Shown piece after piece: positions 154-3,656 of a stretch of 5,694 bases of DNA (position 1 is the first letter of the stretch; every line of letters starts with the position of its first letter). The stretch is from Candidatus Hydrogenedentes bacterium CG07_land_8_20_14_0_80_42_17 (lineage in GTDB: Bacteria; UBA8481), in NCBI GenBank assembly GCA_002780065.1, contig PEWQ01000171.1:1-5694 (forward strand), given 5' to 3'. A program made the position numbers and the translations under genes. Under the pieces are notes generated by a model. That model had not been told where the DNA came from, ran no database searches, and saw only the letters and a list, made by a program, of their open reading frames with translations.

Positions 154-1236
154 TCAGCTTTCAGTGAACTTATCGTGCTCTACTACAGAACTTGATATGT
201 CTACAAAGTGGGTTCCAGACTCGGACATGGCAACGAGATTTTTTATCTGCTCTTCGTATTCATCTTCTATTCCAAGCTCACGAGCGGCTTGATACAACAT
301 AACTAAATCGTTTCCTGAATCGGCTTTTACTCCGTCAATAGTCAGCTTGAATTTTCGTTCGAGTGAAATTCTTCGCCTTTCTTCGTCGATCTCTTCAAGA
401 TGTTTTGAAAAATAAACCGACTTCAAAGTTTCCAGTTTTGCTTTGAATGGAACAATGCCTTCCATTCTTAATAAGTCCATCTCTTTTCGTATTCCAGGCA
501 TTCTTTCGTACTCCATCAGCAACTGATGCGCCTCTATCACTACTTCAGCTTTTGGCGAAAGATATTTTATCCCTTCCTGCCCTTCAAGTAATTTCCATTT
601 GCTTTCGACATTGCTCAATCTAATTATCAAAGAATCATCGAGCCATGGCTTTTCTGCGACTTTTTCCCGGTATTTATCGAGAGCGTCATATTCCTGAGCG
701 ATCTTTTCTATTACCTTTGGATCATCGAGGTCGGGATAGAGCGCGATCCTTTCATCGATTCTTTGTCTGATTTGATGACGTATGATGCTCAAATCAGAAT
801 CGCTTGAATTATCCAGTTTGCGTTTTGCTTCCGTCTCCTCCCTCAATGTTTGCTGCAATAATGACCGCCTCAAAGTAGATGTAATTGTCTTATACATCTG
901 AGTTTTGTTGAAGACGATGTAGAACCTGCGAGTTATAGCCGAATTTATCTTTTCAATGATGCTCGGCATGCGCTCGATATTTAAATTGTTCAACTGACGC
1001 ACCAGAAGAACTTCTGAAGGCGCTTTTGCGGATACTGAAGCTGTTCGAGCATGCCCTGTTAATGCTCCGAGTTCGCCGACAACTTCGCCGACGCTAGTGA
1101 CCCTGCCGAGCATTTTACCTCCGCATGTGACCGTCAATTCTCCTGAAAGTAAAACGAACAGTTCGCGGCTGATGTCACCTTCACGAATGATAATTTGTCC
1201 GGGCTTTAATAAAAGTGTTTCGGCAGGAACGTTCAT
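154..1236 (-). CDS. Cyclic nucleotide-binding domain protein with unassigned helical C-terminus (downstream paralogue)
   Basis: The 360-residue protein is probably cytoplasmic: I see no signal peptide or membrane segment. Residues about 5-105 form a cyclic-nucleotide-binding (CNB) domain of the CRP/PKA-regulatory type. The phosphate-binding cassette is at 50-67, with G54-E55-L56 and R64-x-A66-S67; Glu and Arg are the residues that normally contact the ribose and cyclic phosphate, so ligand binding is plausible. The remaining ~250 residues are rich in charged helix-forming residues and show no helix-turn-helix, kinase, cyclase or channel signature that I recognise. Landmarks shared with the neighbouring paralogue are NKTxxY (110-115), a DDP block followed by I-x-K-I-A (171-180), a W-x-D-D-S-L block (198-203), an MPG...MD block (246-254) and a terminal FVDI (344-347). 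The ATG start is supported by GGTGAG 8 bases upstream and by the one-base gap from the preceding stop. The function is unknown; a cAMP- or cGMP-responsive regulatory or scaffold protein is inference. Confidence 0.88.
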   Translation of the reverse strand: MNVPAETLLLKPGQIIIREGDISRELFVLLSGELTVTCGGKMLGRVTSVGEVVGELGALTGHARTASVSAKAPSEVLLVRQLNNLNIERMPSIIEKINSAITRRFYIVFNKTQMYKTITSTLRRSLLQQTLREETEAKRKLDNSSDSDLSIIRHQIRQRIDERIALYPDLDDPKVIEKIAQEYDALDKYREKVAEKPWLDDSLIIRLSNVESKWKLLEGQEGIKYLSPKAEVVIEAHQLLMEYERMPGIRKEMDLLRMEGIVPFKAKLETLKSVYFSKHLEEIDEERRRISLERKFKLTIDGVKADSGNDLVMLYQAARELGIEDEYEEQIKNLVAMSESGTHFVDISSSVVEHDKFTES

Positions 1237-1237
1237 T

Positions 1238-2284
1238 CTATCTGCTCACCGGCATGAGATCTACAAAGGTAGAACGTGTTTCAGAAACGTCCATAATTCT
1301 GCGAAGCTCTTCTTCATAAAGTGTGAGAACTTTCAGTTCTTTTGCAGAGCGGCTTACGAGCACATTACCACTGCCTGAAGCGAGTTTCTGTTTTTCAATT
1401 GTCTCTTGAACTTTTTTGTTGAGATAAGACAAAGTCTCAACATCTTTATCTTCGGATTTGTTTTTTACAACCTCGTAAAGCGCTTTTGCTCTGGCTTCGA
1501 AAGGAATTATTTCCTCAAGTTTTGCTATGTCCATATGCTTTTGCGCACCCGGAGTATTTTCAAATTCGTTTAGGAGGTCAATCATTTCCATTGTTAATTT
1601 TGCTCGCTCACGAATTGCAGTAAGCCCTTTATTAATGTTTGAAATCTTGAAGCTGTCATTAATTTCGTTGAAACGATTATAAAGAGATTCGTCCGTCCAA
1701 ACTTGTTTCTGCAATTCGATCGAATAATCGGTTAATATTCCGTGAGTGTCGGCAATCTTTTTGAGAATTCGAGGGTCTTCATCTGTCTGATGCAGTTCGA
1801 ATTCTTCGTCGAGAATTTTTCTGACTTTTTTTATTATTTGGTTCTCTTTATCCTTTTGGAGTTTTCCTGATTTTTGTATCTCTTTATTCAATAATGCTTC
1901 GTACAAAATAAGACTTCTGGCTTGAGCGGCAATTTTACAATAAAAATTTGTTTTATTACCGGCAATCTCGAATCTGAATTTAATTGTGGAGTCGATCTTC
2001 TCAAGTATTTCGGGATGCATTTTAGAAAACGTATGAAACTCTACTTTAACAGAAAGCATTTCAACATCTGTGACTGCTATTATTGACGCCGATCTTGGCT
2101 TTCCGGTCAAAGAAGCGAGCTCACCAAGAATATCACCTTGCCCGCGAACTCTGCCAAGCTCAGTTTTTCCTCGCCAGACCGAAACCTCACCCTTCATCAG
2201 AATTAGAATATTATTTCCGGTTTCGCCTTCGGTCACTATTCTCTCGCCTGCTCGAAAGACCTGTGCTGTTTTCTGATCGCTCAT
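1238..2284 (-). CDS. Cyclic nucleotide-binding domain protein with unassigned helical C-terminus (upstream paralogue)
   Basis: The 348-residue protein is the first gene of a two-gene minus-strand operon and a clear paralogue of the gene after it. In an ungapped hand alignment about 25 of the first 70 residues are identical, and 14 of 25 across residues 43-67. The N-terminal CNB domain keeps its phosphate-binding cassette (G54-E55-L56, then R64-S-A66-S67), so it could bind a cyclic nucleotide. After it come NKTxxY (110-115), an EDP block with I-L-K-K-I-A (169-178), W-T-D-E-S-L (196-201), a TPG...MD block (244-252) and a terminal FVDL (340-343), in the same order as in the paralogue. No helix-turn-helix follows the CNB domain, so it is not an ordinary CRP/FNR activator. 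I chose ATG 2284 over the in-frame TTG at 2290 because GAGG sits 7 bases before the ATG but only 1 base before the TTG. The function is unknown. Confidence 0.88.
   Translation of the reverse strand: MSDQKTAQVFRAGERIVTEGETGNNILILMKGEVSVWRGKTELGRVRGQGDILGELASLTGKPRSASIIAVTDVEMLSVKVEFHTFSKMHPEILEKIDSTIKFRFEIAGNKTNFYCKIAAQARSLILYEALLNKEIQKSGKLQKDKENQIIKKVRKILDEEFELHQTDEDPRILKKIADTHGILTDYSIELQKQVWTDESLYNRFNEINDSFKISNINKGLTAIRERAKLTMEMIDLLNEFENTPGAQKHMDIAKLEEIIPFEARAKALYEVVKNKSEDKDVETLSYLNKKVQETIEKQKLASGSGNVLVSRSAKELKVLTLYEEELRRIMDVSETRSTFVDLMPVSR
1245..1250 (-). promoter_or_regulatory. Ribosome binding site inside the end of the upstream gene
   Basis: On the minus strand GGTGAG lies 8 bases before the ATG at 1236 and is embedded in the last codons of the upstream CNB gene, whose TAG stop (1238-1240) is one base from that ATG. 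This supports the start choice and suggests that translation of the two paralogues is coupled. Confidence 0.65.
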
Positions 2285-2290
2285 TTTCAA

Positions 2291-2298
2291 ACCTCACT
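2291..2298 (-). promoter_or_regulatory. Shine-Dalgarno site deciding the start of the upstream CNB gene
   Basis: Read on the minus strand, AGTGAGGT carries GAGG 7 bases ahead of ATG 2284. The spacing suits that ATG and rules against the TTG two codons earlier. It would lie at the very 5' end of the transcript from the promoter predicted here, giving a leader of about 11 bases. Confidence 0.65.
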
Positions 2299-2301
2299 TG
2301 A

Positions 2302-2331
2302 ACTATATCAGCTTCATGAATAAATTTTCAA
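2302..2331 (-). promoter_or_regulatory. Predicted sigma70-type promoter for the CNB operon
   Basis: On the minus strand a -35 box TTGAAA (plus coordinates 2326-2331, 5 of 6 consensus bases) and a -10 box TATAGT (2302-2307, 5 of 6) are separated by 18 bases. The -10 is preceded by TGA, giving an extended -10 (TGnTATAGT). The predicted start of transcription is near 2295. Boxes and spacing are seen directly. That the promoter is used, and by which sigma factor, is inference; AT-rich DNA gives chance matches. Confidence 0.5.
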
Positions 2332-2359
2332 TTGATTACTTTCAAAAACTTTGTATCAT
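2332..2359 (+). promoter_or_regulatory. Predicted sigma70-type promoter for glgC-thrS
   Basis: TTGATT (2332-2337, first four bases match the -35 consensus) and TATCAT (2354-2359, 5 of 6 match the -10) are separated by 16 bases. The predicted transcription start is at 2366-2367, which is the glgC ATG itself. Its -35 directly abuts the -35 of the opposing promoter (2326-2331), the two sharing the palindrome CAATTG at 2329-2334. No CRP-type TGTGA-N6-TCACA operator is visible between 2285 and 2366. Confidence 0.42.
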
Positions 2360-2366
2360 CATAACT

Positions 2367-3656
2367 ATGCTCCAGAAAAAAATAGTTGCCGTTATTATGG
2401 GAGGTGGACAGGGCGTAAGGCTTTTTCCACTCACAAAAGACAGGTGTAAACCTGCGGTTCCTATAGGCGGAAGATATCGGCTGATAGATATTCCAATCTC
2501 GAACAGCATTAATTCGGGCCTGAAAAAGATTAATATTTTGACTCAGTTCAATACATCATCATTGCATAGGCATATTGAGAGAACCTACCGCTTTGATAAT
2601 TTCTCTGACGGTTTCTGCACTATCCGCTCTGCAGAGCAGACTACAGAAAATACAAATTGGTATCAAGGAACTGCTGATGCTGTGAGACAAAATTTGCGAT
2701 ATATTCTTGCTTTTGATCCGGAGTATGTGCTCATTCTTTCAGGCGACCAGCTCTATAGAATGAATTACATGGATCTTGCGGAATTTCATATTGAGCGCAA
2801 GGCTGATGTCACTATTTGCGTCAACCCTGTTGCCAGAGACAGAGCTAAACACATGGGCTTATTACATGTTGATGATAATTTGAAGATTAAAGATTTTGTC
2901 GAGAAGCCTAAAGAAGATGAGCTGTTGGACAAAATGAAGACAGATCCTGAAATGCTTGCTCGTTTCGGATTCACGGTTAACGAAGACAGAAACTACATGG
3001 CAAACATGGGAATCTATTTTTTCAATGCAGATGTATTGAAGAGAATACTTCTTGGAAATTCGATGGTCGATTTTGGCAGAGAAGTTATGCCTTCCAATAT
3101 TGAACATTTTAAAATGTTTGCATTTCCTTTTACGGGCTTTTGGGAGGACCTTGGAACTATAGACGCTTTTTACAAGGTGAATATGAGCCTTTTGGACCGC
3201 AATCCCGAGTTTAATTTTTTCGACCCTAGCGCTCCGATTTACACTCGTCCAAGATTTCTTCCTCCGACTAAAATAATGCAATGCACTATCGATCATTCGC
3301 TTGTTTCTGAAGGAGGATTTCTTGAACAATGCGTTATTCATAGATGCCTTCTTTCGGATAGGTGTGTTATCAGAAATAATTCTGTTCTTCGAGACGTTTT
3401 TATGATGGGAGCAGATTTTATGGAAGGAAAGAATGAACGCGAGGAGAATCGCAGAAAAGATATTCCCGATATCGGTGTCGGACAGGATTGTTTAATTGAA
3501 CGGGTAATCATTGATAAGGGCGCGCGAATCGGCAGTGGAGTAAGAATACGGCGCCATGAAAATGAGCCTGACCGCGATGGGGAATTTTATTATATTAGAG
3601 ATGGAATTACGATTATTCCTCGGAGAGCGATAGTTCCTTCCGGTTCTGAAATATAA
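2367..3656 (+). CDS. glgC: Glucose-1-phosphate adenylyltransferase (ADP-glucose pyrophosphorylase)
   Basis: This enzyme makes ADP-glucose and pyrophosphate from ATP and glucose 1-phosphate, the committed and normally allosterically controlled step of bacterial glycogen synthesis; it is cytoplasmic and usually a homotetramer. The 429 residues match the family length. The N-terminal nucleotidyltransferase domain shows GGGQGVRL (12-19) with the following LTKDRCKPAVPIGG segment, SGDQLYRM (125-132) with the catalytic aspartate D127, FVEKP (177-181) with the glucose-1-phosphate lysine K180, and GFWEDLGT (257-264). Residues about 285-429 form the left-handed beta-helix domain. The C-terminal part resembles the plant/cyanobacterial class: VIIDKGARIG at 380-389 keeps an effector-site lysine (K384), while the second such lysine is replaced by R419. 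I chose ATG 2367 because it puts the usual ~10 residues before the GGG loop; upstream in-frame TTG 2298 and ATG 2316 would add a non-conserved tail and cross the predicted promoter. No SD precedes it. thrS follows 5 bases later. Confidence 0.96.
   Translation: MLQKKIVAVIMGGGQGVRLFPLTKDRCKPAVPIGGRYRLIDIPISNSINSGLKKINILTQFNTSSLHRHIERTYRFDNFSDGFCTIRSAEQTTENTNWYQGTADAVRQNLRYILAFDPEYVLILSGDQLYRMNYMDLAEFHIERKADVTICVNPVARDRAKHMGLLHVDDNLKIKDFVEKPKEDELLDKMKTDPEMLARFGFTVNEDRNYMANMGIYFFNADVLKRILLGNSMVDFGREVMPSNIEHFKMFAFPFTGFWEDLGTIDAFYKVNMSLLDRNPEFNFFDPSAPIYTRPRFLPPTKIMQCTIDHSLVSEGGFLEQCVIHRCLLSDRCVIRNNSVLRDVFMMGADFMEGKNEREENRRKDIPDIGVGQDCLIERVIIDKGARIGSGVRIRRHENEPDRDGEFYYIRDGITIIPRRAIVPSGSEI

Follow-up and report, generated by a model that had tools for sequence, protein, structure and literature searches.

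The window, a 5,694-nucleotide stretch of DNA that spans the whole of contig G000:C80, one of the 207 contigs of a 2.39 Mb assembly, encodes two tandem paralogous proteins in which a cyclic-nucleotide-binding (CNB) domain is followed by a predicted all-helical C-terminal domain. CNB fusions to diverse output domains are well known, but the output domain here matches no family or structure that we searched. The two proteins belong to a real but small signalling family, and we put at about one in two the chance that its members are cyclic-nucleotide-regulated, CRP-like dimerising effectors in which the DNA-binding module has been replaced by a helical, protein-contacting output domain. Recurrence of the tandem in a second genome, occurrence in a second phylum, an AlphaFold2 helical model and an apparent internal duplication are all new relative to an earlier note on this DNA.

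Both genes lie on the minus strand, divergent from the plus-strand glgC and thrS genes. The first gene (P0002, 348 aa; 1238–2284) is an open frame that starts with ATG, has a GAGG ribosome-binding-like site at 2292–2295 and is kept in a second genome, G001. The second (P0001, 360 aa; 154–1236) has a 40% identical orthologue, also in second position, in G001. A single base separates the P0002 stop codon from the P0001 start (TAG-A-ATG), a spacing that suggests co-translation, and the two proteins are probably made from one message. They are 32% identical over 340 residues (E 6e-54), far beyond chance, with 34% identity between the CNB parts and 30% between the C-terminal parts; together with the same arrangement in G001, this bears out the earlier description of the genes as tandem paralogues. 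For the neighbouring glgC gene (glucose-1-phosphate adenylyltransferase; 2298–3656, plus strand), the TTG listed as the start, at 2298, probably lies too far upstream, and the ATG at 2367 is more likely, so that ∼80 bases would separate it from the divergent CNB pair.

The CNB domains span residues 10–80 of P0001 (997–1209, minus strand) and 8–80 of P0002 (2045–2263, minus strand). Both are assigned to PF00027, because they match the Pfam cNMP_binding family at 48.3 and 56.6 bits, respectively (cut-off 27.5), and carry the G-E-L ... R-x-A-S signature. Residues G54, E55, L56, R64, A66 and S67 occupy the same positions in both proteins, and our sequence check thus agrees with the earlier placement of the pocket residues E55, R64, A66 and S67. 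From these residues, cAMP or cGMP would be bound in the canonical CNB pocket. The same pocket signature is found in the regulatory CNB domains of PKA and PKG, which are the top PDB matches, by sequence and by fold, for residues 1–100; the window proteins differ from these in that each chain has a single CNB domain, lacks a kinase or inhibitor segment and continues into an unrelated C-terminal domain. The pair had also been proposed to form a heteromeric sensor, perhaps with a different ligand preference per subunit. A heteromer would fit the retention and adjacency of the paralogues in two genomes, whereas nothing points directly to a difference in ligand preference, since the two proteins share their key pocket residues. 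Class III nucleotide cyclase domains are present in all five genomes that carry the family (5 matches in G000 and 6–13 in the others), indicating that a source of ligand probably exists, although this support is weak because 5 of 14 control genomes have such domains too.

The C-terminal domain comprises residues ∼102–347 of P0001 (196–933, minus strand) and ∼102–343 of P0002 (1256–1981, minus strand). The ordered landmarks listed for it in the earlier note are all there and in sequence in both proteins, including NKTxxY (at residue 110), [DE]DP..I.KIA, W.D[DE]SL and FVD[IL]; only the spacing of the motif given as PG...MD needs correction, to PG-x4-MD (PGIRKEMD and PGAQKHMD). In Pfam, the C-terminal part has no match when searched with either window protein, with nine family members singly or with consensus sequences; hits to NPHP3_N, PEARLI-4 and Terpene_synth fell below the cut-offs, differed from member to member and were rejected. 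NCBIfam gave weak matches only, far under the cut-offs, PHROGs gave nothing significant for this part, and comparison of the domain profile with all PDB sequences gave a best E value of 0.38. AlphaFold2 predicts the isolated P0001 domain, from an 11-sequence alignment, as entirely helical with a mean pLDDT of 83.7 and a pTM of 0.73. A Foldseek search with this model returned nothing significant (lowest E 0.97 against the PDB and 0.53 against viral structures), and VIA-align gave Z scores of at most 7.8, which is the range reached by unrelated helical proteins.

The proposal that this is a conserved, unrecognised domain has therefore held up, since none of the Pfam, NCBIfam, PHROG and PDB searches produced a strong match to a characterised domain and homologues are present both in a second genome from this taxonomic order and in another phylum. 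A missing fold match is no proof of a new fold. The domain could instead be a diverged member of a known helical family, and the architecture perhaps already described under another name, which a narrow literature search for a CNB domain joined to a helical domain did not find. Helical domains diverge fast, and with a search reach of hmmscan and PDB structures a remote relationship to a known family is conceivable; hmmscan with the members and consensus sequences and Foldseek against the PDB nevertheless gave nothing significant, and we regard this explanation as rather unlikely, though it is the strongest of the alternatives.

The AlphaFold2 model of full-length P0001 (mean pLDDT 82.2) consists of a CNB beta-roll, a long helix at residues 91–138 and then the helical domain. 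CRP-family chains align with residues 1–117 of this model, including part of the long helix, with the best alignments to 3i54_C (Z 14.3 over 116 residues) and 4ev0_D (Z 13.7 over 114 residues). In CRP proteins, the corresponding long helix is the dimerisation helix. Like the CRP/FNR proteins, among them T. thermophilus CRP (4ev0) and M. tuberculosis CRP (3i54), the window proteins are predicted to have a CNB domain followed by a long helix; unlike them, they would have ∼240 helical residues where the winged helix-turn-helix would be, and no winged-helix or helix-turn-helix match was detected in Pfam or NCBIfam for P0001, P0002 or seven further members. As modelled, the family appears to keep the sensor and dimerisation helix of a CRP protein and to have exchanged the DNA-binding domain. 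The mycobacterial cAMP-regulated protein acetyltransferase Pat (4orf) likewise combines, in one chain, a CNB sensor at the N terminus with an output domain at the C terminus, but matches to the Pat family model are confined to the CNB part (residues 8–104; ∼23 bits against a cut-off of 460), and neither window protein has an acetyltransferase match in Pfam that would correspond to a GNAT domain.

From profile comparison and the model, the C-terminal domain appears to contain an internal duplication of a ∼54-residue unit. The two copies in P0001, at residues 145–200 (637–804, minus strand) and 284–338 (223–387, minus strand), have the common pattern L...A...G....Y...L, and the repeat profile places the corresponding copies of P0002 at 1691–1852 and 1286–1441 (both minus strand). 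Alignment of the profiles of the two P0001 stretches with hhalign gave a probability of 87.7% and a score of 29.3, compared with 15.3 for the best of 200 column shuffles and 8.8 for a reversed profile. The shuffle control is lenient because column shuffling destroys helical periodicity, and better support comes from the reversed control and from a window-pair scan along the C-terminal domain, in which this repeat offset alone stood out. The signal is weaker when a profile is built for each phylum separately (scores of 22.2 and 25.1, where the best shuffles reach 17.0). Across five genomes, the repeat profile finds 22 copies, two in each of 11 CNB proteins, and outside these proteins no match rises above noise; all 22 were in the profile, and the count therefore shows only that the repeat is confined to these genes in these genomes.

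The spacing within this unit is the reason for keeping a second alternative, in which the repeated hairpin L...A...G....Y...L binds DNA and the proteins are transcription regulators, which would make them divergent relatives of CRP with a DNA-binding module of a new kind. CRP/FNR regulators account for most bacterial CNB proteins of this size, the N-terminal 117 residues weakly resemble CRP chains, and the repeat has the A-x3-G spacing of a helix-turn-helix, with two short helices and a three-residue gap. Against this, no helix-turn-helix family was matched in Pfam or NCBIfam, and the conserved tyrosine sits one position away from where that motif usually has its hydrophobic residue. In the window proteins the second helix of the hairpin is acidic (EDEYEEQ), and the family as a whole shows no conserved basic face there. 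On balance, we consider DNA binding by the repeat improbable.

The tandem pair occurs again, in the same order, in G001, the sole other genome of the window's phylum in the comparison, on a contig that matches RFFU01000033.1 from Candidatus Hydrogenedentota bacterium isolate J006; the arrangement that the earlier note had described thus has homologues in another genome. The likely start codon of the first CNB gene of G001, GTG, shares bases with the stop codon of a tatA-like gene (GTGA; L002 1118–1480, plus strand), so the pair may share an operon with a Tat component, and the second CNB gene starts ∼13 bases after the first. In a tree of 11 full-length proteins, the two first genes group together (98/98) and all four members of the pairs group together (100/100). 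The former grouping indicates that the duplication is older than the split of G000 and G001. The second phylum contributes seven single copies, spread over three genomes with one to three in each. Profile–profile comparison of the C-terminal families of the two phyla gave 96.5% probability and an E value of 9.7e-10 over 213 columns, the second phylum's C-terminal profile alone finds a G001 protein (E 1.1e-9), and the C-terminal domain is fused to a CNB domain in all family members of both phyla.

No other convincing members were found in up to 385 genomes, a wide sample of the domain in three overlapping sets, and a pattern scan of genome contigs returned only the G001 record; both kinds of search can miss diverged members, and a first scan of genome contigs with P0001 alone as query had found no relative. 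CNB-only matches in dozens of genomes were set aside because their alignments stop before the C-terminal domain. The weak C-terminal profile matches that we inspected, in G065, G006, G060 and G084, lack a CNB domain and are not relatives; a further weak match, in G071, lies outside the inspected set.

The complete pocket signature is kept in both window proteins and both G001 proteins, whereas outside the window phylum the pocket glutamate is missing from G030_b, which reads GGLG, and the pocket A is replaced by T in several second-phylum members. This variation, and the commonness of class III cyclases, which makes their presence weak support for ligand binding, would suit proteins that are scaffolds, with a CNB domain serving as a structural or dimerising module that binds an unrelated ligand or no cyclic nucleotide, a reading that the four intact pockets of the tandem pairs make doubtful, to about the same degree as DNA binding by the repeat.

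Two independent neighbourhoods place family members near type II secretion genes. The G001 pair ends ∼2.3 kb upstream of genes for a PDZ (GspC-like) protein, GspD and GspE, and in the second phylum the orthologous set of G030_a and G290_b lies beside or near GspF, GspG, GspK or GspD genes. This proximity is suggestive and falls short of proof, because each genome contains 3–7 secretin matches. A second orthologous set (G030_b, G177_a and G290_a) has a conserved yicC-gmk-CNB-dtd-rpe order in the three second-phylum genomes (L064 6484–9037, L023 2578–5663 and L032 378–3703), where gmk is confirmed by Pfam and the other names come from inspection. The most diverged member, G290_c (L066 4202–5721, plus strand; G290:C221), overlaps a RimI-like acetyltransferase gene at the latter's end, and yajC follows it after ∼250 bases.

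At the window itself, positions 1–84 hold one copy of an AT-rich, dispersed repeat, ∼75–90 bases long, that has 50 further matches in the genome at 83–100% identity. Many copies lie at contig ends, and the repeat is probably why the contig ends on the left side of the window. Contig G000:C24, which carries gspD, gspE and gspF, starts in the same repeat (L075 1–120). A join of the left end of the window to this contig would have a compatible orientation and would put the gsp genes downstream of the pair; we do not claim it, since the ∼50 matches of the repeat in the genome make such a join impossible to demonstrate.

The reading that we favour, a CNB-regulated effector with a helical output domain, can be put as follows. 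The two paralogues would each bind cAMP or cGMP in the canonical CNB pocket, as their residues suggest. In the model of P0001, a 48-residue helix (residues 91–138) is joined to the pocket at the position that the dimerisation helix takes in CRP-family proteins; this helix is therefore the probable site of dimerisation, of each protein with itself or with the other. Where CRP has its DNA-binding module, profile comparison and the model point to an all-helical domain with two copies of the ∼54-residue unit. Once the ligand is bound, the long helix would move and the helical domain would be rearranged as a result; this domain would act through contact with a protein partner, possibly, on weaker grounds, one at the cell envelope or the secretion machinery. 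This reading is favoured by the intact pockets, the alignment with CRP that includes part of the long helix and the absence of a match to any DNA-binding family, as well as by the fusion to a CNB domain in two phyla, the retained tandem, the cyclases in all five carriers and the type II secretion neighbours. Against it stand the lost pocket glutamate of G030_b, the yicC-gmk-CNB-dtd-rpe set, which is not beside secretion genes, the glgC and thrS neighbours in the window, and the fact that the dimerisation helix is a modelled feature. A far more specific version, in which the family is a new effector class whose CRP-like sensor and dimerisation helix drive an undescribed, internally duplicated helical output, with the paralogues an obligate heteromer in the window phylum that acts on the envelope or type II secretion machinery and not on DNA, seems to us a long shot.

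The characterised bacterial receptors for cAMP and cGMP are mostly transcription factors, with a few channels and enzymes. Here, a conserved family keeps the sensor and swaps the DNA-binding part for an unrecognised helical domain, and it thereby points to a possible non-transcriptional output of cyclic-nucleotide signalling in little-studied candidate phyla.
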